The notes under the pieces are model-generated. The model was given only the letters and a program-made list of their open reading frames with translations, had not been told where the DNA came from and did no database searches. From NCBI GenBank assembly GCA_037447655.1, contig JBBHKE010000384.1:1-64000 (forward strand): DNA of 64,000 bases, in the 5' to 3' direction. The DNA comes from Zygnema cylindricum (Eukaryota; Streptophyta; Zygnematophyceae; Zygnematales; Zygnemataceae). Position numbers and translations under genes: made by a program. Shown piece after piece: positions 14,399 through 63,009 of this stretch (the first letter of the stretch is position 1; every line of letters starts with the position of its first letter).

Positions 14399-15047
14399 TG
14401 TAGGATCTTAAGCAAAATACATTCACTCAAATAAATTCACAAAACATAAAACATTACACAGCGAAAGCTCATAATAAATAAGAGGAATATTCAGCCAAAA
14501 ATATTTATAAGTGTTCTTGGCCGAAGCCTCTTTGCATCATCTCTTTTCTCTCTTCTCTCTCTTCTCTCTCTTCTTTAAATAATCTCTTACTCCAAGATTA
14601 ATCCTCTAAGATTTAATCATGTAAGATACAATACTCTGCACATGTACATTGTTGCCTATATACTCGCTACTCTGCACTAAGAGACAACAAGGTAAGACAA
14701 GCAGAACTTAGCGTAGCGACGAAGTCTGTCCCTAGCTGACTGTGCACACTGCAATGACGTTTCCACAAAGAAAGTAGCACAAGATTTCTTCCTTCGAAAC
14801 GACTAACTCCAAGCGTCGACTTAAACACGTGTCGTCACAAGAAAACACCTGCACGCAAAATGTGACACCTACGCACGAAAACATAAAGTGACGCGAAACG
14901 AAATAGTACATTTCGTTCGCGGATAACAAAAGTACCGCCGCGAAACGACGTCGTACATTTTGTATGATGACGTGATACTTCACGTCTAACAAATAAATGT
15001 TAGTATATCGCTTCGCGAAAATACCACGAAATGACAATAACCCAACA
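14399..15047 (-). repeat. Copia-2 3' LTR
   Basis: On minus it starts TGTTGGGTTATTGTC and ends TAAGATCCTACA. It includes the ttctctctcttc microsatellite (about 14543-14575) and tacatttcgttcgcgg motifs. It is preceded on minus by the purine tract GAGGGGGAT at 15048-15056. Confidence 0.9.
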
Positions 15048-15056
15048 ATCCCCCTC
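15048..15056 (-). other. Copia-2 polypurine tract
   Basis: atccccctc on plus reads GAGGGGGAT on minus and directly adjoins the TG start of the 3' LTR. This is the expected plus-strand priming site. The same tract precedes the Copia-5 LTR at 45932. Confidence 0.8.
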
Positions 15057-15222
15057 TTATTGTCGGAATCCCGAAACTCTTCAAAATAATCCAAGTTTTG
15101 GTCGCCCCCTTTCAAATACATCATGTGTGGCAGCCTTCGTCAACAAATCAACCGCCTCCTCTTTTGTCGGTACGTACGGAAAATACAATCTCGTTCGCCG
15201 TAACCAAATCTCTTACAAAATG

Positions 15223-16420: not shown

Positions 16421-16429
16421 CTTGGTGCA

Positions 16430-17400
16430 AATTTCCCTTTCCTCTTAAATGATTCCACATCAACCATAGCATGAATCCTCAAATTCTCAAATGATGAACC
16501 GTGGGATTTCTACCACTCCACAACTCCTCCGGTGTTTTACTTCCGGAAACCGAACTGAGTCTTCGGTTACAAATGTAATTTGTCGTAAGAATGGCGTCTC
16601 CCCACAAAAACATCTCTTGGCCGAAGATATAAACCATCGCACGGACCATTTCTTGTAAGTTACGATTCTATTTCTCGGCCACTCCATTTGACTTTGGAGA
16701 ATAAGGCGCTGTGAATTGATACCTTATCCCCCACTCCTTACAATACCCCTCAAAAACAACAAACTCCCCTTCATTGTCCGACCTAAATGGACTTAAGTTT
16801 TTTATCAATTTGCCTCTCGGCCATTACATGCCATTCTTTAAATTTTTCAAATGCATCCGATTTCTTTTTCAATAAATACACCCGTGACTTTTGAGAGAAG
16901 TCATCAACAATCACCAAAGTACACTTATTACCTCTAATTGTCTTGGGTTTAATATGTCTACAAAGATCAATGTGGACAACCTCCAAGGGATTTTGAGCTC
17001 GATGCTTGATGTCTTTATTCAGATGGGATTTCCGAATTTGACGTCCTTTGCTTCATCCTCCGCAGCTGTTCACCTTCTCACCGGATGTAAGGTCCAAACC
17101 TATCACCGAAGAATGACGAATCATCTCCTTCAAACTTACCTCGGATGTGTGACACATCCGGTGATGCCAAAATGTAAGATCACCTTTCAACTCCGAAATT
17201 TGATGTGAAATTCCCTCGGTGGGAACTTTTGATTTCGGTCTCTTCCATAATAGCCCTTTATGATTCGCATTCGTTACAACCCCTTCTCCAATTACATTCT
17301 TGTTCTCATTCCAAATCTCAATAGATTGATCACCTCTCGCAAGTAAGCTTTCACAACTCTTTTGGATTTGTGGAACGCTTAACAAATTAACCGAACCGTC
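16430..17400 (-). pseudogene. Copia-2 integrase and pre-integrase remnant
   Basis: Positions 17385-17053 on minus carry the GAG-pre-integrase domain (LTFWHHRMCHTSEVSLKEMI, zinc-binding HxxxC-type). Positions 16986-16783 carry the integrase start (VIVDDFSQKSRVYLLKKKSD). The rest of the core continues in broken frames towards 16430, including the C-terminal part with WGDAIL-like text. The copy in Copia-5 (48017-47676) is cleaner and shows the same lineage. Confidence 0.82.
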
Positions 17401-17473
17401 AAAAATATAAAGATTATTCTGTAGACGATACTCCGTCGATTTCTCTTTCCCATCATTATCCTATGAAAGGAGA

Positions 17474-18481
17474 TCAAGCCGAACCAAGGGTAAGGTTAAA
17501 ATCCGGAAACTCATCACCAGTTTCATTACCATAGTCAAAGTAATTTTGCGTTACCGTAACCATGGCCGCCACTGGGGCCACCTCTTCGGCTGCCACCTCG
17601 GCCGCCTCTATCACCTCCTCTACCTCCTCTTCCATTTCCGGAATCTCCACTCTTCGCATAACATTGAGGGCTCCTATGCCCCTACTTACCGCAAAAATGA
17701 CATTCCTTGTCCTTATCCTGACAAAAGGAAGACAAATGTCCAAGCCGATTACACCAGTAGCATGTCACATTAGAAAGATCTGAAGGGACCTTCGGTGGAC
17801 GTCCTTGATCCTTCTTGTTGCCTCGGCCGCCACCACCACCTCTCGGGCCGCCTCCTCTACCACCTCCTCTATCGTCGGCATAGCTAAGATCCAAGGTATT
17901 TGGAGTAGTAGAGTTGAGAACTCCTCCTCGAGGAAACGATCAAACACGGAAGAAGTGCAATTTTTCATCAAACTGGTCGTTGCCGCAATATCCTTCAACC
18001 ACCATTGAGCACGTACCTTACTCTTGATTGGCATTTTCTCTTCTCTATTGACAATTCTCCAAAGCTTCTTGAAAATAAGTTGGCCTGAAATAAACTTCTT
18101 CCAAACGGCATAAGTGGTGCCATTAACGGCCACGGATTTCCCCGACATATTATAACTTTCTTCGTTTTCCAATCCTTCGCCAAAATCGAACTTTTCTTCT
18201 CCTATCTTCGCCTTTCCCTTCCTAATGCTCTCTTTTCTCTCACTCTCATTAGCTCCTCCATAGAATGGATCGGTAGCCGGAAAGAAAGTGTTTTCTTTGC
18301 TCTCACTCGGTTGAGTTTGAAAACGGGAATCTACCTATCTCATAAGTTTATCAAACATTTCCTCGAATTTTCTCTCCCGATTCTAGGTTTCCTCAAATTG
18401 AGAACCCGAAAAACTGAACTCTCTTGCTCTCTCCGAAGTCAACATGGGGGAAGGAGTATTTACATTCTTCTTCCTCCCCAT
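17474..18481 (-). pseudogene. Copia-2 gag remnant with CCHC knuckle
   Basis: The likely gag ATG is at 18481 on minus (MGRKKNVNTPSP...), 43 bases inside the LTR end, so gag is wholly outside the LTR in this family. The UBN2-type core (e.g. YAVWKKFISGQLIFKKLW) is frame-broken. A Gly/Arg-rich region (GGGRGGGPRGGGGGRGN) leads to CYWCNRLGHLSSFC, a CX2CX4HX4C nucleic-acid-binding knuckle, at about 17770-17729. At least two frameshifts separate these parts. Confidence 0.8.
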
Positions 18482-18509
18482 GCGCTCTCTCTATATCTCC
18501 GAAGCACTA

Positions 18510-18521
18510 GCTCCGATACCA
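18510..18521 (-). other. Copia-2 primer-binding site (tRNA 3'-end type)
   Basis: On minus, TGGTATCGGAGC follows the LTR end after two bases. It matches the standard plant initiator-Met site TGGTATCAGAGC at 11 of 12 positions. Confidence 0.85.
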
Positions 18522-18523
18522 AT

Positions 18524-19171
18524 TGTAGGATCTTAAGCAAAAGACATTCACTTAAATAAATTCACAAATCTTCAAACATTACACAGCGGAAGCTCATAAT
18601 AAACAAGAGGAATATTCAGCCAAAAAGATTTATAAGTGTTCTTGGCCGAAGCCTCTTTACATCATCTCTCTTCTCTCTTCTCTCTCTTCTCTCTCTTCTT
18701 TAAATAATCTCTTACTCCATGATTAATCCTCTAAGATTTAATCATGTAAGATACAATACTCTGCACATGTACACTGCTGCCTATATACTCGCTACTCTGC
18801 ACTAAGAGACAACAAGGTAAGACAAGCAGAACTTAGCGTAGCGACGAAGTCTGTCCCTAGCTGACTGTGCACACTGCAAGGACGTTTCCACGAAGAAAGT
18901 AGCACGCGCTTTCTTCCTTCGAAACGACTAACTCTAAACGTTGACTTAAACACGTGTCATCACACGAAAACACCTGCACGCAAAATAAAACAACTACGCA
19001 CGCAAACAAATGTGACGCGAAACGAAATAGTACATTTCGTTCACGGATAACAAAAGTATCGCCGCGAAACGACACCGCTCATTTTGTATAATGACGTGAT
19101 ACTTCACGTCTAACAAATAAATGTTAGTATGTCGCTTCGCGAAAATACCGCTAAATGACAAAAACCTAGCA
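18524..19171 (-). repeat. Copia-2 5' LTR
   Basis: It is nearly identical to the left LTR in length and order. On minus it starts TGCTAGGTTTTTGTC (the left copy has TGTTGGGTTATTGTC) and ends ATCCTACA. Small scattered differences show the insertion is not brand new. Confidence 0.9.
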
Positions 19172-27085: not shown

Positions 27086-27103
27086 TATGTACGAAATAGT
27101 ACG

Positions 27104-29025: not shown

Positions 29026-29035
29026 NNNNNNNNNN
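29026..29035. other. Assembly gap (10 N)
   Basis: Ten Ns, the same length as the gap at 48042, so a placeholder rather than a measured size. To its right, about 29040-29260 holds two copies of gttcagtttaccggacagaa roughly 120 bases apart. Confidence 0.95.
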
Positions 29036-39723: not shown

Positions 39724-40561
39724 TGTTGTTCTACAACCACCGGTGCAGGTGGAGGAGCAGCAGTAGTAGTAGAAGTAGACATGATACACTCTCAGAAGCT
39801 ATCAAGAATCCTACCAACCAGCTGTTCTTAAGTGCTCACCAATTCTTATACAAGCATCCAAACCTCACAAAACTCTATCAGAATATAGAGTAGCATAAAC
39901 ACTGACAACTCCCAAAGTTTCAGCACAATTGACCCAACAACACTCAAGATATAATACTCAGAAGTTTCCCAAAAACTGTTTGCAGTTTTACTACTTGGAA
40001 GTCTGGATACATAAAAATGCTCTAAGTCCTAAGTCTTATACTTTCGGTGTTCTACCGCCGATAACAGTGTACCTGAGAGGTACGTCCAAAATCAACCCAC
40101 CTACTGAGAATACGTGTCCTTGATCGTGCCAACCCAATCTATCATTGTACAGTCAATAATACTCAGAATCTAGATTAAGTGTTTGTACAAATACTTGTCG
40201 GCTAAGTCACTTGTGATACTCTTATGAATCTCGTCCGTTGACTAGATTCATATCAATCGCAGCTGCGTTGTCTCGTACCAGATCACATTTACATCACCCG
40301 CGGCTGCGGTGTCCTGCACCGAATCATATCCAAGATAGTAGCAGCTGCGTTGTCCGTACGGATCTTATCCAAAGTAACCGCAGCTGCGTTTGTCCTGTCT
40401 GTGTCGCAGCTTCGCTGCTGCGCTGCTCTGCTGCTGCGCTGCTGCGCAGCTCTGCTGTATAGCAGCTGCGCTGCTCTTCCGTATCGCAGCTGCGCTGCTG
40501 TCTATATAGTTGCTGCGCTGCTGCACTGCTCTGAGACTGAAAGCTTTCCAAAAAGACAACA
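39724..40561 (-). repeat. Copia-6 3' LTR
   Basis: On minus it starts TGTTGTCTTTTTGGAAAGC and ends GTTGTAGAACAACA. It holds a GC-rich gctgcgctgctctgctgctg tract (about 40405-40525). Because gag starts inside the LTR, this copy also carries the first gag codons (ATG at 39782 on minus) with nothing behind them. Confidence 0.9.
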
Positions 40562-40568
40562 CTCCCCT
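40562..40568 (-). other. Copia-6 polypurine tract
   Basis: On minus, TTTAGGGGAG directly precedes the TG of the 3' LTR. The core AGGGGAG is at 40568-40562. Confidence 0.75.
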
Positions 40569-42329
40569 AAAGCTTTACAATCAGTATACCAGCGCAGCTG
40601 CGGTGATAAACTAGCGTAGTATCGCAGCATAGCAGTATAGCAATTAGCTATTCACTTAATCCCACTGCTTCCCTAAAATACTTCAGCTTAGGAGCAGGAA
40701 GAGCTTTAGTGAGCATATCAGCAATCATTTTTGCATCTGGTAAGTAACATAATTTAATCACTCTAGAGAACACTTTTTCTCTTACAAAGTGTAATCGTAC
40801 ATCCATGTGCTTGCTTTTGAAGTGATGACTGGGGTTAGAAGCAATGGCAATGGCAGCCTGGTTATCACACCAGATCACCTGCGGACCAACTTGCATGTAT
40901 CCTAGTTCTTGTAACATGGATTTTACCCATAAGAGTTCTTTGAGGGCCGAGCTTGCTGCCATATATTCCGACTCCATTGTCGACTGTGCTGTCACCTTTT
41001 GAAGTTTGCTGCTCCAGCAGCAAGTATCGTTCCCAACTTGTAGAATGAATCCCGTGGTAGATTTCCGGCTTGGCATGTCGCCATAGCTTGCATCACTCCA
41101 TGTTTGCAGCTTGACTTCTCCTCCGCCTAGAGTGAGTTTGAGATCTTTAGTTCCTGCCAAATATCTTAAGACTCTCTTTGCTGCATCCAGATCAGATTTT
41201 CTCGGATTTTCTAGACTCCTACTCAGTACCCCGACTGCTGCAGCAATGTCAGGACGGGTACAGTTCATGAAGTATATTAAGCTTCCCACTATCTGTCTAT
41301 AAGGTATTATTGCCATAGGATCATTCTCCCCTGATTCTAAATACTCGCTAACAATGACACCTGGTTCTGTCTCTTCTCCCTCTAACTTCTGCCGAAACTC
41401 CATTGGAGTTAAACATCCTTTTGCCCCCCGCATTCCGTACTCATCTAACATGTTTCCAATTGCCTCTTTTTGAGTCAATTTTATGATTTTCTTATTTGTG
41501 TCCCTCTCTACCTGGATACCCAAAACATATTTTGCCTCACCGAGGTCTTTCATCTCGAACCGTGAGTTTAGAGCAGTTTTGATTTTGTTAATTTCAGCCA
41601 TTGATTTGCTAATTAATAGCAAATCATCTACATATACCGCTATATACATTATCACATTTTCACCCTTTAGAACGTAGACAGAGTGATCAAAACTTATCAT
41701 TTGAAATCCTAGACTAGTCAGGAATTCATCAAGCTTTATATTCCACTGTCTGGGGGGCTGTTTTAGGCCGTTCAAAGATTTTAGCAACTTGCATACTAAG
41801 TGCTCTTTTCCTGGTTCCACATACTTTTCAGGCTGCTGCATGTAAATGGTCTCTTCTAGTTCTCCATGCAAAAAGGTCGTTTTTACATCCATCTGATGAA
41901 TTTCCATATCTTCTATAGCAGCTAGGGACAGCAAAATCCTAACTGTTGGAAATCTTACAACCGGAGAAAATGTTTCTTCAAAATCGATTCCTTCCTTTTG
42001 ATTTTACCCTTTCGCCACAAGTCTAGCCTTATAGCGTTCAATGATGTTATCGGGATTTAACTTCACCTTGAATACCCATTTGCTGCCGATCGCTTTTCGG
42101 TCTGGAGGAAGGTCCACGAGCTCCCATGTTTGAGCCTCCATGATCGACTTCATTTCGTCGTTTGCCGCCTCAATCCAGTGATTCCGCTCTGGTGTTGAGA
42201 AGGCCTCTTGGATGGTCAAGGGCTCCCCTGAGACTGCCGAGTAGGCAAAGTGAGAGCTTGCTTGCAGGCGACTGCTTGATCTTCTTCCCCCCGAAAATTC
42301 TGAGGATGAGATCGTCGGATGCCGCGCAT

Positions 42330-42480
42330 TGCGCTGATTGCGCTGGTTGCGCTTGTTGCGCTGGTTGCGATCCGTGTCTTGCTGATTGCGCTGGTTGCGC
42401 TGGTTGCGATCCGTGTCTTGCTGATTGCGCTGGTTGCGATCCGTGTCTTGCTGATTGCGCTGGTTGCGATCCGTGTGTAT
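42330..42480 (-). repeat. 30-bp minisatellite inside the Copia-6 pol linker
   Basis: On plus the unit is gatccgtgtcttgctgattg followed by cgctggttgc, repeated with 9-bp insertions (cgctggttg). It encodes DRNQRNQQDT-type repeats and stays in frame because unit sizes are multiples of three. Confidence 0.85.
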
Positions 42481-44851
42481 TGACTGATCTTGGTCCGTCT
42501 GGACCCGAAGTTGGTGAGGAAGTTGGAGAGAGTCTGTTTCCGGAGTCATTTCCAGAGTTTGTGGAATCTGCGGGACAATTTCCTGCATGCAATCTAAGAT
42601 GACATACTCCTGTACTTTTTGTTGATTTTGCTGCTCTGTCATGTGAAATAAATCTATGGAGTCTAGTTCATCCTTAACAATGATGTTTCTAGCTACAACT
42701 ATTTTCTGTCTTTCAAACACAAAGACTCTATAACCTTTCGAGTGATCATCATATCCTAACAGAATGCCTGGTAATCCCTTCATTTCCATTTTCCATCTAT
42801 CTGTAGACGTATCCAATATAAAGCATTGACTACCAAAGACCTTGAAATGGCTAACATCTGGTTTGCTACCTGTCCAGATTTCGTAAGGGGTTGTTTCTAC
42901 CGATCTTGATCCTATCCTATTTTTAATATAAACTGCACAATTTAGAGCCTCAACCCAGAATTTCGGATCCACATATTTATCTGCGAGCATAGATCTAGAG
43001 CTTTCCGTGAGAGTTCTATTCAGTCTTTCCGACACCCCATTTTGTTCCGGTGAATATGGAACAGTCAATAGATGACTAATGCCTTCCTCGAGTAAAAAGG
43101 TTTCAAACTCTTTTGATGTATATTCACCACCATTGTCCGATCTGAGCTGCAAAATAGATGAATTATGAAGTTTTTCAGCCCATGCTTTATAGTGTTTGAA
43201 GTGACCAAACACTTCACTCTTCTCCTTCATGAAGTAAACTTTTGTAAACCTTGAGAAATCATCTGTGAAGGTGACCATATATTTCATCCCTCCGGTAGAA
43301 GGAACCTTCGCCGGACCAAAGACATCCGAATGAATTTGTTGTAAAAGTTTCGTCGACCGATGCTTAGACTCCTTAGGAAATGGCAATCTGTGGATTTTGC
43401 CTAAAGCGCAACCATCGCAAGTTTTGACCGGCCCATATGTGAGTGATATACCCTCTATCTTTCCATCAACAACCATTTTCTTCAAACTATCATAGTTGAC
43501 ATGGCCTAATCTTTTATGCCACAACTCATCTGAGTGCAAAACACCGGAGTACAAAACATCATTTTCTTTTGTATTAGCCATATCCATGCGATACATCTTG
43601 CTACTATCTCTAGTACCTGTAACTGCAACCTTGCCGTTTTTGTTTACAACCTGCCGACCGTTTTTCAAACTAACTTCAAAGCCTTTACTCTCAACCAACG
43701 ACGTAGAAAACAGATTTTTCTTAAAGTCAGGCACAAATAAGACATTGTGAAGAGTCCTTTCAATTGCTTTTCCATCCACATCAACTAGCAAGGACACATC
43801 ACCCATTGCACGAGTTTGGACACTCATTCCACAAGCATAATAATTATTTTTCTCCGGCGTTGCTTTCAGATTTTTGAAGATGGCCTTGTTCCAACACATA
43901 TGCGCTGACGCTCCTGTATCCATAATCCAGCCAGGGTCCTTTGCGCCTTCCATTGCTGCCGCCATAGCGAATAGATCCGTGTCGTCCTCCCCAGAAAATG
44001 TCAGAGTTTCGTCTTGGAGTGATGAAGAAGCTGAAAACAGTGCATTTCCACGAGGTGTAGGCTTCGTGAAGCTTTTGTAAAACTGACTTTGTTGCCATCC
44101 CGGCCTGTATAAACCGGAATCGTTAGCTTGTTTAAGTTTAGGACAGAATTTGTATCCATGACCTCTCTCACTACAATAAAAACATGCATTGTTTGATTTT
44201 CTATTTCCCCCCAGATTAAACTGTCTGAATTGGGTAAACTGGTTACTTTGCTGATTAAATTGACCTTTCTTTCCAAATTCTGAATTAAAAGCCTCTACTT
44301 GCTCAACATTGAGGATGTTAGATGTAGCTTCCTCCTCTAATAAAATATTGATCGCTAACTGTAAAGTCCAGCTAGCTTTATCTTTCTGTTTGAGCATGTC
44401 AGATGCTCCTTTCATACTACGAGGGAGACCCCGCATGAGCAATGCTGCCTGTTGAAACTGAGGAAACACCCCACCGGCACAAGCATGTGCATCTACAAGA
44501 ATACGAAATTTGTTAGAATATTCAGCCATTGTACCGCCAGTGTACTTATAGTCCCAAATTTTTCCAGCCAATAGAAGTTCTTCCTAAATATTAGCCTTTT
44601 CATAATCACTTTTAATGGATTTCCAGATATCAATTGCTTTTTTCATTTTTATCCGAGACATAGCTAAGTCCTTAGATATACAAAATTTCAAAATAGAACG
44701 AGCCTGCGTATTTTTCTTAGACCATGACGGATCAGATTCATCCAAAGAACCATCCAATATATCCAAAAGATTGACATTTTCAAAATGTGTCTCCACCATA
44801 TCCGCCCAGTAAACATACTTATCCCCGGAAAAGATAGGAATTCTTGATGAC

Positions 44852-44863
44852 AGGCCCATAACC
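44852..44863 (-). other. Copia-6 primer-binding site (half-tRNA type), inside gag
   Basis: GGTTATGGGCC on minus starts directly after the LTR end (...ACAACA). It is complementary to the anticodon arm of initiator tRNA-Met. It is read as codons for Val-Met-Gly within gag. Confidence 0.65.
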
Positions 44864-45654
44864 TGTTGTTCTACAACCACCGGTGAAGGTGGAGGAGCAG
44901 CAGTAGTAGTAGAAGTAGACATGATACACTCTCAGAAGTTATCAAGAATCCTACCAACCAGCTGTTCTTAAGTGCTCACCAATTCTTATACAAGCATCCA
45001 AACCTCACAAAACTCTATCAGAATATAGAGTAGTATAAACACTGGCAACTCCCAAAGTTTCAGCACAATTGACCTAACAACACTCAAGATATAATACTCA
45101 GAAGTTTCCCAAAAACTGTCTGCAGTTTTATTACTTGGAAGTCTAGATACATAAAAATGCTCTAAGTCCTAAGTCTTATACTTTCGGTGTTCTACCGCCG
45201 ATAACAGTGTACCTGAGAGGTACGTCCAAAATCAACCCACCTACTGAGATCTACGTGTCCTTGATCGTGCCAACCCAATCTATCATTGTACAGTCAATAT
45301 TACTCAGAATCTAGATTAAGTGTTTGTACAAATACTTTTCGGCTAAGTCACTTGTGATACTCTTATGAATCTCGTCCGTTGACTAGATTCATATCAATCG
45401 CAGTTGCGTTGTCTCGTACGGGATCACATTTACATCACCCGCGGCTGCGGTGTCCTGCACCGAATCATATCCAAGATAGTAGCAGCTGCGTTGTCCGTAC
45501 GGATCTCATCCAAAGTAACCGCAGCTACGTTTGTCCTGTCTGTGTCGCAGCTTCGCTGCTGCGTTGCTCTTCCGTATCGCAGCTGCGCTGCTGTCTGTAT
45601 AGTTGCTGCGCTGCTGCACTGCTCTGAGACTGAAAGCTTTCCAAAAAGACAACA
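44864..45654 (-). repeat. Copia-6 5' LTR, containing the gag start codon
   Basis: Same ends as the left copy. The gag ATG (44922) lies 59 bases before the LTR's inner end, so the LTR encodes the first 19-20 residues (Ser/Thr/Pro-rich, MSTSTTTAAPPPSPVVV). Confidence 0.9.
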
Positions 45655-45931: not shown

Positions 45932-47140
45932 ATCCCCCTCTTATTCTGGTAATCGCCAAAACTCCTCAACATAATCCAAGTTTCGGTCGCCCCCTCTCAA
46001 AAACATCATCATACGTGGCAACTTTTGTCAGCAAATCTGTCACCTCCTCTTTTGTTTGTATGTACGAAAATACAATCTCGTTCGACGTAACCAAATCTTT
46101 AACAAAATGCCATTGGATCTTGATGTGTTTCGTCCTCTTGTGAAACTATGGATTTTTTTGCCAACGCCATCGCACTCATAATATTAGAATAAATCGTCAT
46201 ACAACCAATAAAAAAGCTCAACTCGCGTAGCACTACAATCCCCAAAAAAATAGCGTACCTCTCCAAGATCCGTTACTTTGAAATGTAAACGTTTCAACTC
46301 TTTAATGCGCTCCATCTTGTCGCATGCCATCAAGAAATCATCCACATAAATAGAAAAGATGATGTGGTCAACTCCTTCACCTTTCACGTAAACTCCAGAA
46401 TCGGACATAGTCCGTACAAATCCGAATTTCAATAGTACTTGATGAAGTCTCAAATACCATGTGCGCGACGCCTGTTTCAAACCATATAATGACTTTCGCA
46501 AACGCCAAACATTTCTTTCCTGCAAAGGAGACACGCCTTCCGGTACCTTCATGTATACCTCTTCCTTCAACTCACCAGTTAAAAATGCAGTTTCCACGTC
46601 CATTTGATGGACGTGCTTCTTCCCCATCGCTGCAAGTGCAATAATAATCCGTAGTGAGTCGAACTTCACCATGGGAGCATAAGTCTTGTTAAAATCGATT
46701 CCCTCGCGTTGTTGGAATCCTTTACAAACAAGCCTTGCATTGTACTTAATAATTTCACCCGAAGCACCAGTCTTTGTCTTAAATACCCACTTTGTATCTA
46801 TCGCCTTTTTCCCATCCGGTAATTTTACTTCCTCAAAAGTTCGATTATCAACCACCGACTTAAATTCTTTCACCCACGCCGGTTTCCACTTACTCTCCCA
46901 ATTGGCCGACCTCCTAGCCTTGACATAAGATTGAGGGTCGCCGGTCATGTTTTTCCGAAAGTGATTGGTATAAAAGAAACTTTGTCTCCTTAGCATCGGA
47001 AAGAAAATAATGTGAATTCGATGCATTTTCCTCTTTTCGATCGTAAGTGAGCTTCTCCGGTTTCTTTCCCTTTGTAGTCTGAGAGCTCCTCCTTAGAACT
47101 TGTTCTTCCTCCTTTTCCTCTTTGTCTTCCTCGGATTGAA
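45932..47140 (-). pseudogene. Copia-5 reverse transcriptase remnant, RNase H deleted
   Basis: Minus 47026-46184 holds a good reverse transcriptase: FEEVKLPDGKKAIDTKWVFK, MDVETAFLTGELKEEVYMKV, SLYGLKQASRTWY, YVDDFLMA, LHFKVTDLGEVRYFFG. Directly after that it jumps to the end of RNase H (the region matching ELSIPISCMTIY), so most of RNase H, about 470 bp, is missing. The tail with frame breaks runs to 45941. This is the mirror image of the defect in Copia-2. Confidence 0.85.
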
Positions 47141-48041
47141 TTTCAATTTCTTTCTCACTTGATTTAGAACTCGATTTAGAGCTTTGAGATTTCTGAATGT
47201 TCTAAGGCACTCGAGAATCTAAAGATCTGTTACTCTTTCTTTCAAATTCAATTTCAACGGATTTCCGCAATTTCTTTTTCTGAGTTTTCACATTCGGTTC
47301 CTCATTGGATTCCGAATCTCCAATGTAGAAAATATTCTCAATTTCTCTCTCCTCATAATAATCAAAATTCTCTTTAAATTTCCCAGCAGGGTCCATGGCG
47401 GATTTGAGATCCTCATGAAAATCCACATTCCAAGATTCATGCACGGTGTGACGAGCTGGATCATACACTCGGTACAAATTTCCCTTTGCACTATAACCAA
47501 TATAAATTCCCGGCCAACACCTTGGTGCAAATTTCCCTTTCCTCTTAATTGATTATACATAAACCGTAGCATGACTTCCCCAAATTCTCAAATGATGAAT
47601 TGTAGGATTTCTTCCACTCCACAACTCCTCCGGTGTTTTATTCCCCGAAACCGAAATGATTATTCTGTTACAAATTTAATATGCCGTAAGAATCGCATCT
47701 CCCCACAAAAACATCTCTCGTCCGGAGCTATGAACCATCGCACGGACCATTTCTTGTAAGGTATGATTCTTCCTCTCGGCCACTCCATTTGACTCCGGAG
47801 AATAAGGCGCCGTGAATTGATGCCTTATACCCCACTCCTTACAATACCCCTCAAAAACAACAAACTCCCCTCCATTGTCCGAACGAATGGACTTAAGCTT
47901 CTTATCAATTTGCCTTTCGGCCATCATATGCCGTTCTATAAATTTTTCAAATGCATCCGATTTCTTTTGCAATAAATACACCCATGACTTTCGAGAGAAG
48001 TCATCAGCAATCACCAAAGTATACTTGTTACCTCTAATTGT
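47141..48041 (-). pseudogene. Copia-5 integrase and linker
   Basis: Minus 48017-47676 encodes the integrase core with all catalytic acids: VIADDFSRKSW, RSDNGGEF, SNGVAERKN, then FLWGDAIL. Positions 47572-47202 encode the post-integrase region (GYSAKGN-type, YDPARHTVHESWNVDFHED) and the acidic/basic linker. Frame breaks occur near 47660 and 47570. The sequence stops at the gap at 48042. The part matching Copia-2 from about 16941 to 17678 is absent here. Confidence 0.85.
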
Positions 48042-48051
48042 NNNNNNNNNN
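48042..48051. other. Assembly gap (10 N)
   Basis: Placeholder gap between Copia-5 integrase and the anomalous segment at 48052. It probably hides the 5' side of Copia-7 and about 0.7 kb of Copia-5. Confidence 0.95.
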
Positions 48052-48310
48052 GGTTGTCGTTCGGGGTAGTGGGTGTATATTATGTATAGATCTTCACGTA
48101 GAGGAGTAGCCTCGTAGTGGTATTAACCGTAGTGAGTTTCATCACTACAGTCATAAGAGGGGTGGGTTTACGTTGGTATCTAGGGATCAAGGATAGTTTA
48201 TAGATTCCTAAGAGAATCGACAGAGGATTAGGGAGAATCACCCTCGTAAATCTGAAGAAGAGTCGTGAGGATGTCGACGTCGATTTAGGCCGACCCAAGT
48301 TAAGTATTTT
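48052..48310. other. Sequence written in reverse without complementing (mirror segment)
   Basis: Neither strand of this 259-base block matches anything in the window. Read backwards, base for base and without complementing, it matches Copia-8 RNase H DNA (58503-58245, minus) at roughly 90% or better. It then reads PDLAAAVGVL, LNAPTKRD, WLHLGGENTDITT, YGDAP and YVLYVGDGACCW. The first 45 bases (48052-48096) are the exact mirror of 48311-48355. So this is Copia-7 sequence typed in the wrong polarity next to a gap, overlapping the true contig end by 45 bases. Confidence 0.93.
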
Positions 48311-48730
48311 ACTTCTAGATATGTATTATATGTGGGTGATGGGGCTTGCTGTTGGAGTAGCAAACAGCAAAAAGTTATTGCTTAGTCCACCATGGAGGCT
48401 GAGTATATGGCCTCTTGCTCTGCTGTAAAAGAATTGATGTGGGTCAAGTCTTTGCATGGTGAGCTTGGTCACCTTAAGAGTGGTGTGCATAAATTTTTTT
48501 GTGATAATTAGGCTGCAATCGCTATTTCTGCCAATCCTAAACATCATTTTAAAGCCAAACACATGGACATCAGACTCAGCTTTGTTAGAGAGAAAGTAGA
48601 AAACAAAATAATCAGTTTAGAGTACCGACCAGATAGTGAGATGGTAGCAGATATGATGACCAAACCTGTGCCTTCCCCTAAGCTAATTTTCTGCAGGGAG
48701 AAGTGTGGTCTGAAATTAAAGATTGACTAG
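48311..48730 (+). pseudogene. Copia-7 fragment: end of RNase H
   Basis: On plus the frame reads CCWSSKQQKVIA, STMEAEYMASCSAVKELMWV, HLKSGVHKFFCDN, HFKAKHMDIRLSFVREKVEN, EYRPDSEMVADMMTKPVPSP and KLKID before the stop at 48730, with two in-frame stops (after KVIA and FFCDN). It is very close to Copia-8 (58270-57865). The upstream part exists only as the mirrored block. Confidence 0.88.
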
Positions 48731-48743
48731 AAAATAAGGGGAG

Positions 48744-49797
48744 TGTAGAAATTAATGGTCCATTTAAAGTATTTTCTAGGTCTAAATAGAAATATAGAAA
48801 GAAGCCGAGGCAGTCTACCTCTAACTTCTCTCTCCAACTCTCAAACTTGTCGTAGTCACTGAGAAATTGGAGAGGGAGCTAGAGCCATGGCTACCTAGGC
48901 TATCCAGAGGTTTACGGGAAATATATATTAGTTAGGGGTTTATTTACTAAAAGGTATGTGCCGGCCACAGGATTTGATCCTAGTACCTACCGGCTGGCAG
49001 ACAGCCGTTAGCCGGTAGCCTTGGCTGTGAAGTCTAGAACTAGTGTTACGTACTATATAGTTTGATAATAAATTAAACATTATCAGGTAGGATAATTCAT
49101 TTAACTGTAATTAGTTACAGGATACATAGATCCAGTAATGTAAAAGTACGGATTATGGTACGGATAAGAAACCAATACCGCTCATTTATTTCTTTAATGA
49201 AACGAATATCGCGCATGTATTTATTACGGCTACGATTAAATGTGAATTTAATCGGACAGCCGGAATTAACGCCGAGATCGCGAAAGAGGATTTTGGCGGT
49301 TTGTGGTCATCGCCACATCAGATAACACGTGGCGGAATGACATTGGATCGCGGCATCTTTGAGGATTAAGGGAGCGAATCCGGACATACCACGTGTCGAC
49401 ATTTAGGGCATGTCGTATAGTGTCCGTACAGAAAGTACACTGGCAGTTGTACTTTTGTGTACGGTACTGTAATTTGATTGGCTCCGTACATCACTAGATA
49501 GAGTCTGTGAGAGAGATAGGACTTAGAAAAATTAGGAGATAGGACCCTCTCTCCCAGAGAGCTTCTATACAAAGGTCAACTTTGACCCTCCATAACTTAC
49601 TGCTCAGGGGAGCAAATTCAGAGATCTTTTTTGCTATCGACTCAGGGGAGTCTTGCCTTCACAAGGGTGAAGTTGGTCAGAGTTATTGTCTGCCAGGGTG
49701 GCAGTTGTTTTTGCTGAAACACAAAGGGGTCAGGGTTATCCTAGAGGCTTCTTGGAAGCTGTCCACTCTGAGGACTTATGGAGGTCTCGAAGTTTCA
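48744..49797 (+). repeat. Copia-7 3' LTR
   Basis: It is preceded by the purine tract aaataaggggag, starts tgtagaaattaatggtcc and ends aagtttca. It is about 1.05 kb and collinear with the Copia-8 LTRs. The inner end carries the gag start codons (atggaggtctcgaagtttca). After it, cgtat leads straight into Copia-5 gag, so Copia-7 inserted there; the Copia-2 empty site reads cctat. Confidence 0.88.
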
Positions 49798-50640
49798 CGT
49801 ATGCCCGCACTTACCGCAAAAATGACATTGCTTGTCCTTTTCTGGACAAGAGGAAGACAAATGTCTAAGACGGTTACATCGATAGGATGTCACATTGGAA
49901 AGATCAAAGGGACCTTCGGTGGACGACCTTGCTCCTTGTTGCCTCGGCCGCCACCACCACCTCTCGGGCCTCCTCCTCTACCACCCCCTCTTCCACCGGC
50001 ATAATTAAGATACGGGGTTTCGGAAGTAGTAGAGTTAAGAACTCCTCTTCCTCCACTTGAAGAAGTCGTTGGAGTTCCATCCGACATTTTGATAAATTGA
50101 CGGTGAATCCGAAGGTGTTATTCTCCTTAGCTCGTAAAATAGTTTTAAGATGCGAAAGCTTCTCCGGTAAAGCATTAAGAAAAACGCTTAACTTATCCGC
50201 ATCTAAGATAATTTGGCAAATGTTGATTAATTGCTCGAGTACAATATTGAAGCGCTTCACGGCATCGTCCATCGATTCATTTGACTTGATTTTAAAATTC
50301 ATAAAGTCCGTATAAACATATTGACCCTTGTTCTCAACGCCTTTCTCATATAGCTCCTCAAATACTTACCAACACTCATAGGCCGTGCCTTGAGCGAGGA
50401 AATGATCAAGCACGGAAGAAGTGCAATTCTTCATCAAATCGGTCGTTGCAGCAAAATACTTCAACCTCCATTGAGCACGTGCCTTACTCTCAAGTGGCAT
50501 TTTCTCTTCTCCATTGACAATCCTCCAAAGCTTCTTGAGAATAAGCTGGCCTAAAATGAACTTCTTCTAAACGGCATAATTGGTGCCATTAAAAGAGTAT
50601 TTCTATTTTTCTTCTTCCCCATGCGCTCTCTCTCTATCTC
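49798..50640 (-). pseudogene. Copia-5 gag remnant
   Basis: Minus 50302-49904 encodes the UBN2-type gag (SNESMDDAVKRFNIVLEQLI, LNALPEKLSHLKTILRAK). It breaks frame near 50100 and continues through a Gly/Arg-rich region (GGRGGGRGGGPRGGGGGRGN) to the first part of the zinc knuckle region, cut by Copia-7 at 49798 (CHFCGK). Upstream to 50600 the N-terminal gag is frame-broken. Same family as Copia-2 gag. Confidence 0.83.
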
Positions 50641-50650
50641 CAAAGCACTA

Positions 50651-50662
50651 GCTCCGATACCA
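50651..50662 (-). other. Copia-5 primer-binding site (tRNA 3'-end type)
   Basis: TGGTATCGGAGC on minus, two bases inside the LTR end, identical to the Copia-2 site. Confidence 0.85.
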
Positions 50663-50664
50663 AT

Positions 50665-51280
50665 TGGAGGATCTTAAGCAAAAGAAATTCAGTCAAATAA
50701 ATTCACAAATGTTAAATCATTACATAGTGGAAGCTCATAAAAGACAAGTGGAATATTCTGCCAAAAAGATTTATAAGTGTTCTTGGCTGAAGCCTTTTTA
50801 CATCATCTCTCTTCTCTCTTCTCTCTCTCCTCACTCTTCTTTAAATAATATCTTACCCCAAGATTAAATATCTAAGATAGATTGATTGATATATTTTACT
50901 CTACAGCGTACACAATTGCCTATATACTCGCTACTCTGCACTAAGAGACAACAAGGTAAGACAAGCAAGACTTAGCATAGCGACAAACTCTGTCCCTAAC
51001 TAACTCTCCCTAGCTAATCTCGCAAACATTAATGAAAGTTCCACGAAGGAAGGCGCACGCGCTTTTTTCCTTCGAAACGACTAACTCCAAAAGTTAACTT
51101 TACACGTATCACTTCCCGAACACATCTGCACGCAAAAAAAAACACCTCCGCACGAAAACAAAAGTCACGCGAAACGAAATAGTACATTTCGTTCATGGAA
51201 ACCAAAAGTACCGCCACGAAACGACGTCGTACATTTTGTATGATGACGTGACACTTCACGTCCAACAAATAAATATTAGT
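50665..51280 (-). repeat. Copia-5 5' LTR, interrupted
   Basis: It runs on plus from tggaggatcttaagc (Copia-2 has tgtaggatc) to attagt at 51280, where the Ty3-like LTR begins. The final 50 or so bases (tatcgcttcgcg...cccaaca) are missing here and would be expected right of that element, outside the window. Confidence 0.85.
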
Positions 51281-52400
51281 TGTCCGCGCGCACGATATCA
51301 CGCCCGCACGCGCGATATTGGGCGTGCGTGCACAATATAATGCACACAAGCGCGGTATTTCAAATGCACGCACGGTTTAAGGCAAGCGCGCGCGACTTTA
51401 TGCATGCACACGCGATTTCATGCATGCACGGACGATTTGATGCACGCACGTCTAGCTTTTTCGTTCCCACAGGCGAAATTTCGCGTCAGTTCATTTATTT
51501 ATATGTTTGTTGAACCGTACTAATTTCATGCGATACTTTTCATTTCATGCGCAAGTATTTCGATTTCGAGTATTTCGTGCGTTATGCTTTGTTTCGTGCA
51601 ATGCACGCGATTTCGAACTATGGACGCGGAGTATCGTTTGGCGCCGAATTGCGATTTCCGGGAGTATCGGCGACGCTTCGATTCCTTCTATTTATTTAAG
51701 TCGCGAATCCATGCAGGTTCGCGCACACATGTAGTTAGGGAGGGTTTTTACCCTCGGACAGTAGATTTTGTCAGGCGTACGGCAGATGATGTTGGCCGCC
51801 TATTGGCCAACATCTTACGTAGTTTCATGCATGTAAAGTAGGCTAGACGTAGGCTAGTTTTGCTTAGGCCTAGCGTAGCTCCTACTTAGGCTAATTCTCA
51901 GACTTAAAGAATTTTAGCTTTTGGACAAGAATTTTCTCTTGGCGGTTGAGCTTCTCTCTTGCTCTCTCTCACCGATTGCTCACATTTTCTCTCTATTATT
52001 GCTAGCTAGCTGTAGAGGCTAGATAGGTTAAGAACATTTACCTTTGTTTTCTGCCCGCGCTTTTTAATCCACACGGCTCAAAGCTATGTCCGGAAGGTTT
52101 CCCTCCAACTTGCGTCATTTTTGGGAAGTGGTGGAGTGAAGTTCGTGTGGAGAGGCATCCAGATCCAGCTGCGCCTTCTACGGGCAGCGGAACGGTTTGG
52201 AGTGTTTGTGTTTGTTTTGTTTGCATTTCGGTTGGGAGTGGGGAAGTGAATTTTGACCGGATTTTGGGAATTTTCCTTGTTTGGTTGAAATTGTTTATTT
52301 GCTTTGCTGCCTCTTCGAGGTAACTCTTGTAGAGAATACGACAGAGACCCGAGAGCCTAGTGGCTACCTCGTGGCTTAGTATTCTTGTCTAAAAGCTACA
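51281..52400 (+). repeat. Left LTR of the Ty3-like gag-protease element (right end uncertain)
   Basis: From tgtccgcgcgcacgatatca at 51281 the sequence matches 63287-64000 in the same orientation over at least 720 bases. It includes alternating cgcgcg/tgcatgca stretches (51283-51450), a ctcggacagtagattttgtc block and the ggctagacgtaggctag block. Comparison stops because the window ends, so the LTR's right border is a guess. I found no convincing primer-binding site between 52000 and 53500. Confidence 0.7.
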
Positions 52401-56786: not shown

Positions 56787-57851
56787 TGAAACTCTGAGAC
56801 CTCCATAAGTCCTCAGAATGGACAGCTTCCAAGAAGCCTCTACCACAACCCTGACCCCTTTGTGTTTCAGCAAGAACAACTGCCACCCTGGCAGACAAAA
56901 ACCTAACCACTTTCACCCCTGTGAAGGCAATACTCCCCTGAGTCGATAGCAAAAAGAATCTCTGAATTTGCTCCCCTGAGCAGTAAGTTATGGAGGGTCA
57001 AAGTTTACCTTTTATACAGAAGCTCTCTCGGAGAGAAGGTCCTATCTCCTAATTTTTCTAAGTCCTATCTCTCTCATAGACTCTATCTACCGATGTACGG
57101 AGCCAATCATATTACACTTCTGTACACTAAAAAACAGCTGCTGGTGTACTTTTTGTACCGACACTGTACGACATGCCCTAAATGTCAACACGTGGTATAT
57201 CCGGATTTGCTCTCTTAATCCTCGGAGATGCCGCAATCCAATGTTATTCTGCCACGTGTCATCTGATGTGGCGATGACCAAAAACCGCCGAAATCCTCTT
57301 TCGCGATCTCGACATTCATTCCGGCCGTCCGATTTAAATGCACATTTAATCGTAGCCGTAATAAATACCTGCGCGGTATTTGTTTCGCTTTTGAAACAAA
57401 TGCGCGGTACATGTTTCTTGTCCGTACCTTGATTCGTACTTTTACATTCCTCGATCTATGTATCCCGTAAACCGTTTAAGTTAAATGAATTATCCTGCGT
57501 GGTAATGTTTAAGTAAATATCAAACCGTATAGTATGTTTCACTAGTTCTAGACTCAACAGATAAGGCTACTAGCTACTGGCTGCTCACCGTCCGGCAGGT
57601 ACTAGGATCAAATCCTGGATGCAGCATATATCCTTTTAGTAAATGAACCTATAACGGTAAATAAACTAATATATTTCACGTAAACCTCTGGAGAGCCTAG
57701 GTACTATGGCTCTAGCTTCCTCTCCAATTTCTCAGTGACTGCGAGAAATTTGAGAGTGGGAGAGAGAAGTTAGAGATAGACTGCCTCGATATCTTTCTAT
57801 ATTTCTATTTAGACCTAGAAAATACTTAGAAACAGACCATTAATTTCTACA
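56787..57851 (-). repeat. Copia-8 3' LTR
   Basis: On minus it starts TGTAGAAATTAATGGTC and ends GAGTTTCA, 1,065 bp. It contains the tRNA-like block near 57550-57612 (aggatcaaatcctgg) and paired gtac motifs. It is preceded on minus by AAATAAGGGGAG (57863-57852). Confidence 0.9.
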
Positions 57852-57863
57852 CTCCCCTTATTT
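57852..57863 (-). other. Copia-8 polypurine tract
   Basis: AAATAAGGGGAG on minus, directly before the 3' LTR. Identical to the tract before the Copia-7 LTR at 48744. Confidence 0.85.
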
Positions 57864-57864
57864 T

Positions 57865-59305
57865 CTAGTCAATCTTTAATTTCAGACCACACTTCTCCCT
57901 GCAGAAAATTAGCTTAGGAAGAGGCACAAGTTTGGTCATCATATTTGCTACCATCTCACTATCTGGTCGGTACTCTAAACTGATTATTTTGTTTACTACT
58001 TTCTCTTTAACAAAGCTGAGTCTAATGTCCATGTGTTTGGCTTTAAAATGATATTTATGATTGGCAGAAATAGCGATTGCTGCCTGATTATCACAAAAAA
58101 AAATCTGCACACCACTCTTAAGGTGACCAAGCTCACCATGCAAAGACTTGACCCACATCAATTGTTTTACAGCAGAACAAGAGGCCATATACTCAGCCTC
58201 CATGGTGGATTGAGCAATAACATTTTGTTGTTTGCTACTCCAACAGCAAGCCCCATCACCCACATATAATACATATCCAGAAGTACATCTCCTTATCGGA
58301 GCATCACCATAACTGGCATCACTCCAAGTAGTGATGTCAGTATTCTCCCCACCCAAATGCAACCATATATCCCTAGTTCCTATCAAATATATAAGGACTC
58401 TCTTACCTGCCTCCCAATCCCTCTTAGTTGGAGCATTTAGACTTCTACTCAGCACTCCTACAGCTGCAGCTAAATCCGGCCGGGTACAATTCATAAAATA
58501 GATTAGACTTCCCACTACTTGCCTGTAAGGAATAGTCTGCATGAACTTCTGTTCTTCAGGAGACAATTCCTCGTCTAAGACTATGACTCCTTCTTCCTCA
58601 CTCCCCTCACTTCCCTTCTTCAATTCCATTCGAGTTGTACAACTATTAGCTTTATCCATTTGAAAATTTTCCAGCATGTTCCCTATTGTTTCATTTTGAG
58701 TCAATCTTATAATTTTTCTTTTTCGGTCTCTCTCTACTTGAATCCCCAAAATATATTTTGCTTCCCCCATATCGTTCATTTCAAACTTCCCCTTAAGATC
58801 GGTTTTCAGTTTATTAATTTTTTTTCCTTGATTTACTTAAAACAAGCAAATCATCAACATAAATTGCAATAAATATAAAACCTTCCTCATCTTCGAAAAC
58901 ATAGATTGAGTGATCTAAGCTGATCCGGATATATCCTAGACCGGTAAGAAACTCATCAAGCTTCTTATTCCACTGTGGAGGCGCCTGTTTCAAACCATAA
59001 AGAGATTTAATCAGCCACCATACCTTACTCTCCTCTCTTTCCTCCACAAACCCTTCGGGTTGTCGCATGAAGATCTCCTCTTCCAATTCTCTATGCAAAA
59101 AGGCTGTCTTGATGTCCATCAGGTGCACTTCCATGTCTTCCACTGCTGCCAAGCTGAGAAGTATGCGGACGGAGGGAAATCTGACCTCCGAGGCAAAGGT
59201 TTCCTCGTAGTCAATTCTCTCTTTTTGTGTAAATCCCTTTGCCACTAATCGGGCATTGTAGTGCTCGATTGTGTTATCTGGGTTCAGTTTTAATTTGAAA
59301 ACCCA
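57865..59305 (-). pseudogene. Copia-8 reverse transcriptase and RNase H
   Basis: Minus 59305-58814 is reverse transcriptase: ARLVAKGFTQKERIDYEETF, MDIKTAFLHRELEEEIFMRQ, YGLKQAPPQW, YVDDLLVLSKS. A frameshift at about 58800 leads to 58779-57865: KYILGIQVERD, YFMNCTRPDLAAAVGVLSRS, WSDASYGDAPIRRCTSGY, STMEAEYMASC, FFCDNQAAIAI, KHMDIRLSF. The final stop is at 57865. The RNase H part is intact and served as reference for the mirrored block at 48052. Confidence 0.9.
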
Positions 59306-60630
59306 CTAACAACCGATTGGTTTTCGGTTAGGTTGACAATCCACCAGCTCCCAAGTATCGGCTGCCATAATTGAGGCCATCTCCTCATTGATGGCTGTCT
59401 TCCACCGGTTCTTTTCTGGACAAGTCATTGCCTCTCCATAAGTTTGAGGTTCATCTTGATGAGATAGTTTAGTTACCTTGTTATTAACATGTTTTTCTTG
59501 CAATCTTTTGCTACTTGTCCTTCCCCCCTCAAAATCTGAGGCCGGAATAGATGGTTCTCGTGGATTCTTTCGAACAATCTCGGCTTCTCCCCTGTCCCTT
59601 GATTCTGAATCAATTTCCACCACGTCTTCCGCTTCGTTTAGAGTTGTCACTGGAGTTTCCACAGCCGAGTCCTTTTCGGTCTGATTTGTACCTGCAAGAA
59701 TGTCATCTTCTCCAAAACCTGGATATTTAGGAAGCTCAAAGTCATCGGAATTTTTTGACTCAAATTTGATTTTTACTGACTTTGTATACTTGAAGGGATC
59801 CACAGACTTTTCTTCATCCATAACTACTAGATGCTTTACTAAGATTATATCTTCCCTTTTTAGATCATAAACTCTATATCCTTTAAGATCCTCATCATAT
59901 CCTAACAAGTATCCCGGTTTTCCTTTATGATCTAGCTTCGAATTAGACCGATGGGTATCTAGACTAAATACTTGAATGCCGAAAACCTTTAAGTGAGATA
60001 TGTTTGGTTTCCGGCCTGTCCATCACTCATAAGGTTTTTGATATTTTATAGTTGAAGTAAGAACTCTATTTTTGAGGTAATTAGCACAGTTCATTGCTTC
60101 TGCCCAAAACCTTTTTCCTATCTTCTTATCTGACAACATACTTCTAGCACTATCACTTAGTGTTCTATTTAACCTTTCAGCTACCCCATTCTGTTCCGGG
60201 TTTTTTGGAACTGTCTTTTGGTGTTGGACCCCATCTTCCCTCAAAAAATCCTCAAACTGGTTAGAAGTATACTCTCCACCATTGTCACTCCTTATTCTCT
60301 TGATTGGAGTTTCATGGAGTTTTTCGCTCCATGCTTTATATTGTCTAAAACAATCCTGAGCTTCGGACTTGTTTTTCAAAAAATACACTCGGGAATACCG
60401 AGACCAATCATCAGTGATAGTCATCATAAATCTCTTCCCCCCCGGTGAGGGCACTTTAGCCGGTCCCCAAATATCTGTGTGTACTAGATCTAGAATTTTT
60501 TCTCCCTTATAGGTGGCTGTTTTAGGAAAGGGTAATCTGTGTGCTTTACCTTGAGCACACCCACTATAATCACTTATATTATCACTCTCACTGAACTGAA
60601 TCCCTTCCACCACTCCCATCTTTTTCATCT
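59306..60630 (-). pseudogene. Copia-8 integrase and linker
   Basis: Minus 60628-60023 carries CAQGKAHRLPFPKTATYKGE (pre-integrase end), TITDDWSRYSRVYFLKN, RSDNGGEYTSNQFEDFL, NPEQNGVAERLNRTL and WAEAMNCANYLKNR: an integrase core with intact catalytic acids. A TGA follows at about 60020. The frame then resumes (SHLKVFG) to 59908-59306, with LGYDEDLKGYRVYDLKREDI and the SIPASDFEGGRTSSKRL linker. A TAG at about 59308 sits where relatives have Lys (PIGCKWVFK). Confidence 0.9.
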
Positions 60631-62223
60631 CTCATAAATTATCTAGATTCACATGCCCAAGCCTCTTATGCCACATCATTTATATCATGAACACCAACAT
60701 AATAAAGTTTCTTTGTTCCATTACTTAAAATCAGCTTAAACATCCCTTGGCTACCTTTCTCAACAATGAAATAGACCTCCTCCTCAAAACTAGCAGTAAA
60801 GACTCCTTCCCTAGTGCTAGTGAAAAAACCCTTATCATCTAATACAGATGTAGAGATGAGGTTTTTGTTCAGCTCCGAAATAAACAATACATCGGAGAAT
60901 GTTATTATGAATGTCTTCCCATCTACTAGCACTTTGAGATCTACCGATCTTACAAGAGTAGTAGTGACTATCATCCCATCCCCGTTCTCTATCTCAACGA
61001 TGGGAATCTTTCTTATCTTAGTGAACAGGTGCCAATCCTTACACATGTGCATAGAGGCACCTAAATCTATAATCTAGCAAGCTTCACCTTTCAATCCACC
61101 GTAAGCACATTTCTGCCTTCGTGGAATTTCGACCTCGTTTTTCGCCTCCAACTCCTCATCCAATAGGAGCTCATCGTCCTCGTCCTCGGATTCCGCCTCA
61201 TGTACCTGTGTGACAAGGGCATTTTTCTTTCCTCTCGGGGTACCATCGGTCCGCCCCTCTTTTAATCGAAGCTTGGTTAGCGTAGTGCACTCTGCCATAT
61301 AGTGCCCAGGTTTCTTACAAAAATGACATAAACCTTTGGGAGACTTGGTCCGAACTCGTCGGTCTAATTTTTCTGCTCCCTCCCCCCATAGTATTGACCG
61401 GTCTTCGAAAATCCTTGTTCCTCCAATCGCTCGCAGCTGCCAAGGCTTGCCCACTCTTTCCTCCCATTCGGATCTCAATAGTATTCCCCCGAACGAAAAT
61501 CATCCCTACCACTGAGTTCCATATCCACCTTGAGTCCGGCAGTCCTGCACACGGTTGACTATGTTCTCGAACTCATCGGGTAACTTCATCAATAAACAGT
61601 TAACCTTTTCTTTTTCACTAAAATCTTTTCCCGCACTCTCTAGCTCCATAAAGAGTGTAACAAGCTCATTGCAAAAATCCAACATCTTCCCCCCTTTGTA
61701 TACATATTTCTTAACTTTCTGATCAGCCAACTGTTGTTGCGGAATCGTACCACTTCGGAACATCTCTATGAGAGCCATCTAAAGATCGGATGCCCTTTCT
61801 ACCTGCAAATGAGGACATGCAAGTCCTTGAGTAAGATGGCGTAGGATGAAGTGCTTTGCCGCCATATTGTTGAAGTCCTAGGTTTCAGTATCATTCTCCT
61901 CGTTCCTCGGAATAGGTGACATGAATGCTGAACCAGTTGCTATTGGTGTGGTCGTCTCCTTCTCCGCTCCTTTGTCCACCACCTCTCCTTCCTTTGTCTC
62001 CTCCGTTGAAGATGGATCTGCTTTCTTTGTGAATCTGCTTCCTCCTAACCCTGAAGGGATTCCAAGACTTGATGGACGCCCCAATTGTCCACTCACTATC
62101 CCCCAAAACCTTTTATTCGCATAGAGCTCCTATCATCATACTTTCCCAGTATATAAAGCCAGTTCCATTGAAGATTGGTACCCTAGAGGGTAGGCCCATA
62201 ACCTGAAACCTTGAGATTTCCAT
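60631..62223 (-). pseudogene. Copia-8 gag and protease
   Basis: The start codon is probably the ATG at 62223 inside the LTR (MEISRFQ then VMGLPSRVPIF across the primer-binding site). The frame shifts near 62100. Gag continues through SGLGGSRFTKKADPSS, VKKYVYKGGKMLDFCNELV (61778-61506) and LMKLPDEFENIVNRVQ, to the knuckle CHFCKKPGHYMAEC (about 61327-61286). The protease active site reads IIDLGASMHMC (about 61065), with Leu where Ser or Thr is expected. The protease region continues to 60666 (VEIENGDGMIVTT, SDVLFISELNKNLISTSV). Stops occur near 61875, 61505 and 61074. Confidence 0.85.
62192..62203 (-). other. Copia-8 primer-binding site (half-tRNA type), inside gag
   Basis: GGTTATGGGCCTACC on minus matches 14 of 15 bases of the complement to the initiator tRNA-Met anticodon arm. 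It starts directly after the LTR end. Confidence 0.7.
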
Positions 62224-63009
62224 AAGTCCTCAGAGTGGACAGCTTCTAAGAAGCCTCTAGGATAACCCTGACCCCTTTGTGTTTTAGCAAGAACAACTGC
62301 CACCCTTGCAAACAAAAACTCTAACCTTCTTCACCCCTATGAAGGCAAGACTCCCTTGAGTCGATAGCAAAAAGAATCTCTGAATTTGCTCCCTTGAGCA
62401 GTAAGTTATGGAGGGTCAAAGTTGACCTTTTGTACAAAAGCTCTTTGGGAGAGAGGTTCCTCCGGCCTTCCGATTTAAATGCACATTTAATCGTAGTGTA
62501 ATAAATACCTGCGCGGTATTCGTTTCGCCATTGAAACAAATGCGCGGTACATGTTTCTTGTCCGTACCTTGATTCGTACTTTTACATTCCTGGATCTACG
62601 TATCCCGTAAACCGTTTAAGTTAAATGAATTATCCTACGTGGTAATGTTTAAGTAAATATCAAACCGTATAGTATGTATCACTAGTTCTAGACTCAACGG
62701 ATAAGGCTACCACCTACCGGCTACTCGCCGTCCGGCAGGTACCAGGATCAAATCCTGGATGCAGCATATATCATTTTAGTAAATAAACCCATTACGGTAA
62801 ATAAACTAATATATTTCCCGTAAACCTCTGGAGAATCTAGGTAGCCATGGCTCTAGCTTCCTCTCCAATTTTGCTTCCTCTCCAATTTCTCAGTAACTGC
62901 GACAAGTTTGAGAGTGGGAGAGAGAAGTTAGAGATAGACTGCCTCGATATCTCTCTATATTTCTATTTAGACCTATAAAATACTTAAAAACGGACCATTA
63001 ATTTCTACA
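62204..63009 (-). repeat. Copia-8 5' LTR with internal deletion
   Basis: Same termini as the left LTR. About 250 bp are missing around 62458-62462, where gagagaggttc joins ctccggccttccg. The lost part contains the paired gtac motifs and TATA-like ttttataca-proximal sequence. The tRNA-like block survives at about 62695-62760. Confidence 0.9.

Follow-up and report, generated by a model that had tools for sequence, protein, structure and literature searches.

Mirror-written Copia DNA beside an assembly gap in Zygnema cylindricum, very probably a misdirected contig extension

What is a stretch of DNA that makes sense only when its letters are read backwards without being complemented, and does it belong to the organism or to the record? 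We addressed this question for 259 bases beside a 10-N gap in the window, i.e. the 64,000 nucleotides analysed here (contig JBBHKE010000384.1, positions 1 to 64,000, of the Z. cylindricum assembly GCA_037447655.1). Read in reverse and not complemented, positions 48052-48310 give 214 bases of Copia DNA and then 45 bases that are identical to 48311-48355 (Table 1). The read-back block aligns with the minus strand of a Copia copy with both LTRs in the same window (element B, 58240-58498) at 244/259 bases and without an indel; taken separately, the extension agrees with B at 200/214 and the overlap at 44/45 bases, likewise without indels. For the contig sequence next to the block (48311-48743) the agreement with B is 411/433 bases; divergence from B is about equal in the block and the adjoining contig, and the block is in register with the contig. 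A preliminary description of this locus, made from the letters alone, had reported a 259-base block written backwards without complementing, whose first 45 bases exactly mirror 48311-48355 and which adjoins the gap, and all three points were borne out by the read-back alignment, by the 45/45 matches of the overlap and by the position of the Ns (48042-48051, block from 48052). Its coordinates for the Copia partner (58245-58503) were off by five positions, and the identity that it put at 'about 90%' is really 94%.

Both mirror searches were run by BLAST against the window with E up to 1e-3 and the low-complexity filter on. The complemented window returned one pair of places, 58240-58499 with 48052-48311 (260 bp, 94.2%, 402 bits, E = 5e-112). 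The reversed window returned the 45-bp mirror as its sole match (82.4 bits); third-order Markov controls derived from the reversed window (n = 20) scored 40.1 bits at best. Of the exact mirror matches at least 14 bases long, 35 passed the complexity filter, and among the best 14 of these 35 the 45-base match is the longest and is followed by matches of 20, 17, and 16 bases, each of which is a stretch matched to itself. Within the window, the written form of the block matches only itself and one 22-bp stretch (E = 0.16), and it lies outside all 26 stop-to-stop ORFs of at least 150 aa; the earlier description had called it invisible to BLAST or ORF scans. The observed-to-expected ratios of GpC and CpG are 0.18 and 1.20 in the block as it stands (0.93 and 0.95 in the window), and reading the block back swaps the two values.

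Table 1 Features at the gap and reference elements, in window coordinates
Feature	Position	Strand	Remarks
Gap, 10 N, nominal size	48042..48051	.	Stands for about 5.2 kb by comparison with the complete copies A and B
Mirror-written block	48052..48310	.	Copia DNA of the putative RNase H region, reversed and not complemented; 214-base extension plus 45-base overlap
Mirror copy of the 45-base overlap	48052..48096	.	At the gap edge; exact mirror of 48311-48355
Mirror copy of the 214-base extension past the contig end	48097..48310	.	200/214 to minus strand 58285-58498
Putative start of the right-hand contig	48311..48355	+	45 bases repeated in the block; 44/45 to minus strand 58240-58284
Element B', end of putative RNase H region and 3' part before the LTR	48311..48743	+	Ordinary orientation; 411/433 to B
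Element B', 3' LTR (TGTAG...TTTCA)	48744..49797	+	Self-comparison and border inspection
CGTAT, putative right target-site duplicate of B'	49798..49802	.	Equivalent to CCTAT at 17673-17677 in A; left twin would be in the gap
Element A', left of the gap	46575..48041	-	Collinear with A 15479-16941, 87.7%
Element A', right of the B' insertion	49798..51284	-	Three pieces, order and orientation as in A
Element B, Copia LTR element, both LTRs	56787..63009	-	TGTTC on both flanks; yardstick for B'
Element A, LTR element, both LTRs	14399..19171	-	AGAAA on both flanks; yardstick for A'
Element C	39724..45654	-	Flanks AAAGG and GAAGG

The surroundings of the gap were mapped by self-comparison of the window (pieces of at least 100 bases, E up to 1e-10) and inspection of element borders. 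Positions 39432-51284 hold a nest of LTR elements, in which C lies within an LTR of A' and B', in opposite orientation, within the body of A'. Element A' is a second copy of A that is split into an LTR part (39432-39722), which is followed by C, a part from about 45655 to 48041, the gap, and a part from 49798 to 51284. The three right-hand pieces correspond to A as 49800-50050 to 17675-17929 (84.7%), 50395-50592 to 17929-18126 (89.4%), and 50592-51284 to 18451-19133 (83.8%); A has no counterpart to about 345 bases between the first and second pieces, and A' lacks about 325 bases of A between the second and third. Since the order and orientation of A are preserved in A' to the left and to the right of the gap, the two contigs look correctly joined. 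Because A' runs on beyond the gap, the remainder of B' is expected inside the gap; B' is assembled only as its 3' end (48311-49797). If both elements resemble their reference copies, the sequence missing at the gap amounts to about 736 bases from A' and 4510 from B', or somewhat more if B' has a 5' LTR as long as its 3' LTR. New here is the identity of the right-hand contig (48311-49797), which, as judged from these alignments, is the 3' end of B', inserted oppositely in A'. Nested repeats of this kind are where short-read contigs end and where gap extension gets tried. The yardstick for B', element B, has LTRs that begin with TG and end with CA and is flanked by a 5-bp target-site duplication (TGTTC); in B' only the 3' LTR and the putative right duplicate are present.

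Element B has Copia (Ty1) order, with the integrase upstream of the reverse transcriptase, as its Pfam domains down the minus strand are rve (60023-60631), SH3_retrovirus (59306-60022), and RVT_2 (58814-59305); in B' this part would fall within the gap. Read in reverse and translated from its second base, the block gives ...TQPDLAAAVGVLRRSLNAPTKRD...YVLYVGDGACCW, with YVLYVGDGACCW at the end, and contains two stop codons, which marks it as a decayed copy. In the comparison ORF in B (57865-58836, minus strand), Pfam listed only the end of RVT_2 (residues 5-70), at the ORF start, and no RNase H family; from Copia domain order, we take the part after RVT_2 to be the RNase H region. A homologue search with this ORF gave 17 of 1069 candidate proteins at E up to 0.001, with a best identity of 39%; two of them bear the name Phytophthora cactorum, one Quercus suber, and one Vitis vinifera. 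A scan of the window for tRNA and Rfam families gave no match.

Mirror order, overlap, adjacency to the Ns, and fit to B are plain features of the record: the block adjoins the N run at 48042-48051 from position 48052 on, its overlap is mirrored at 45/45 positions, and its read-back is the expected neighbour at 244/259. The comparison with B supports the read-back block as the predicted upstream neighbour of 48311 in B'. In our judgement the block is an assembly artefact with high probability, namely a contig-end extension that was inserted in the wrong direction, and we infer that a gap-extension or contig-merging program was the agent and that one of two slips occurred. The contig starting at 48311, inside B' nested in A', would have been extended leftwards by 214 bases from a 45-base overlap, and the extension would have been written the wrong way, either reversed without complementing or as a minus-strand walk that was complemented without reversing. 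Perl's 'reverse' in list context leaves a single string unchanged, which is one way to complement without reversing. The correct form would have been 214 new bases running into 48311; the written form would instead consist of the overlap, the new bases backwards, and the contig with its own overlap. The 45-base overlap would thereby have survived in mirror form beside the gap, presumably untrimmed because this form no longer matches the contig, and the remaining approximately 5 kb would have been recorded as 10 N. A model built from the upstream sequence of copy B and the contig's first 45 bases, as a minus-strand walk that is complemented and not reversed, agrees with the block at 245/259 positions, 45 of them by construction; when these pieces are put together in the correct form, as the reverse complement, or as the complement, the agreement is 62/259, 3/259, and 74/259 positions, respectively. 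The preliminary description had likewise proposed an overlapping contig end put in the wrong direction by a gap-filling tool, which is supported by the contact with the gap, the mirrored 45-base overlap at the outer edge, and the fit as the neighbour of B'. Its wording 'reversed but not complemented' fits and is one of two equivalent accounts, as 'complemented but not reversed' for a walk on the other strand yields the identical string and the two slips are indistinguishable. It had seen a real feature of the record and rightly read it as an artefact. The organism's DNA very probably holds the same letters in ordinary orientation.

The same letters would also result from a manual or downstream editing slip, i.e. 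from record conversion, curation, or sequence handling rather than automatic gap extension, and of the two gaps in the window just one shows the error; yet the 45-base overlap, the position beside the 10 Ns, and the net extension of 214 bases look like a program's contig-end extension, and we consider such a slip improbable. A real mirror duplication in the chromosome, in which some process copied or joined 259 bases with reversed strand polarity, has in its favour that the record reads so, and nothing else. Polymerases and ligases join strands antiparallel, as is established, so that an inversion is a reverse complement, and to our knowledge no polymerase, ligase, or recombinase yields a mirror copy. 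Such a duplication would further need to start exactly at the gap edge, to be identical to the contig start at 45/45 bases in a region that differs by about 5% from B, and to reproduce upstream sequence that is missing from the assembly, and we regard it as extremely improbable. Two further sources of mirrored DNA are more remote still. Natural triplex-forming (H-DNA) mirror repeats would share the mirror symmetry, here across 45 bases, but the prominent H-DNA motifs in the available text of PMC9171763 are polypurine-polypyrimidine, whereas the block is mixed sequence (56% purine, 44% GC) from a Copia coding region and its symmetric stretches lie 214 bases apart. Synthetic mirror-image control DNA (a chiral spike-in) that contaminated the sequencing library is equally negligible: sequences reversed without complementing are made as sequencing controls, but those in the accessible part of PMC6430799 are deliberately synthesised, mirrored human sequence, whereas the block is a diverged, native Copia copy beside a gap whose mirror exactly overlaps its own neighbour, and a spike-in would not join to a contig via a mirrored overlap.

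A misdirected contig extension, our preferred reading, has partial likenesses among known assembly steps. The gap closers GapFiller (PMC3446322) and merauder.pl of Meraculous (PMC3158087) are described, in the portions of these papers that were available, as working into a gap from the contig edges with k-mers and as able to leave gaps open; this contig-edge k-mer extension is the kind of step that could make such an error. GapFiller uses a default overlap of 29 (PMC3446322), and Meraculous, whose program names end in.pl (Perl), starts from flanking k-mers, raises k by 2 after a failed closure, and used 41-mers in its published example (PMC3158087), as against 45 bases here; those portions describe no direction error for either program. 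Meraculous is at most a candidate for the source program. As a matter of general knowledge, an ordinary reverse-orientation misassembly also places a piece in the wrong direction, but such an inversion error is a reverse complement and is found by BLAST, whereas the block is a mirror and is missed by it.

The extent of the error was examined at the other gap, by composition, in other genomes, and in the literature. The window contains two 10-N gaps (29026-29035 and 48042-48051), one of which has a mirror. At 29026-29035, the 500-base flanks, whether reversed or complemented, reached scores of 27 to 30 against the window, with 20 controls each going up to 35, which is no mirror signal in a test that would miss a mirrored piece with neither an overlap nor a relative in the window; positions 29036-29335 have no such relative. 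The reversed left flank of the main gap scored 34 (maximum of 20 controls, 33), which we take as chance. As the other gap shows no mirror, the error does not occur at every gap. That other gap sits in diverged repeats (26464-27091 with 28395-29024, and 24208-26433 with 29336-31498), and is probably caused by repeats too.

Composition was compared forwards and backwards in 1265 windows of 250 bases, using strand-symmetric Markov models of orders 2, 3, and 4. The block scored +2.4, +4.0, and +0.5 bits, respectively (window means: -2.5, -4.0, and -5.2), and 329, 251, and 218 of the 1265 windows were positive. The top backwards-reading window was the same in every order (48901; +10.6, +12.8, and +14.1 bits; area 48801-49200) and lies in the LTR of B', although that LTR and those of B align in ordinary orientation. 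Because of the many positive windows and the top window in an ordinary LTR, composition alone neither detects the block nor can screen gaps. An exact-match search of GTDB genomes (bacteria and archaea) at one site gave 0 matches for a mirrored 16S probe (27F region), whereas the forward probe matched at least 117 stretches, and the mirror error does not look common at this 16S site in bacterial and archaeal genomes. Titles and abstract openings among the matches listed in a literature search describe no gap fill that was reversed and not complemented. Far likelier than a true mirror copy in the chromosome, though in our view slightly less likely than not, is a recurring direction fault in a gap-extension program that would have left mirrored contig ends, which BLAST does not see, at numerous gaps in this assembly and in those of other eukaryotes.

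In sum, what stands at 48052-48310 is very probably an error in the data, one with a precise anatomy, rather than part of the organism's genome. It represents a class of assembly error, the mirrored contig end, that was missed here by BLAST, by the ORF scan, and by the k-mer composition test. Wherever mirrored contig ends recur, they would place false 'unique' sequence beside gaps, hide transposon or coding sequence, and might be mistaken for orphan DNA. Such errors are easily screened for by comparing every gap flank with its own surroundings in reversed, uncomplemented form.

The elements of the window show some further characteristics. The LTRs of B (56787-57851 and 62204-63009) are distinguished by a segment of about 277 bases (57043-57320), which the 5' LTR lacks and the 3' LTRs of B and B' share; a later loss from the 5' LTR would be the simplest cause. 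On the minus strand, immediately inward of the 5' LTR, both B (62190-62206) and C (44850-44866) carry GGTTATGGGCC, which we take to resemble the half-tRNA primer site of Drosophila copia. Element A instead carries TGGTATCGGAGC, which is like the usual site for the 3' end of the initiator tRNA. The ORF of C contains a repetitive stretch (42170-42667) of DRNQRNQQDT repeats between its integrase and reverse transcriptase parts.
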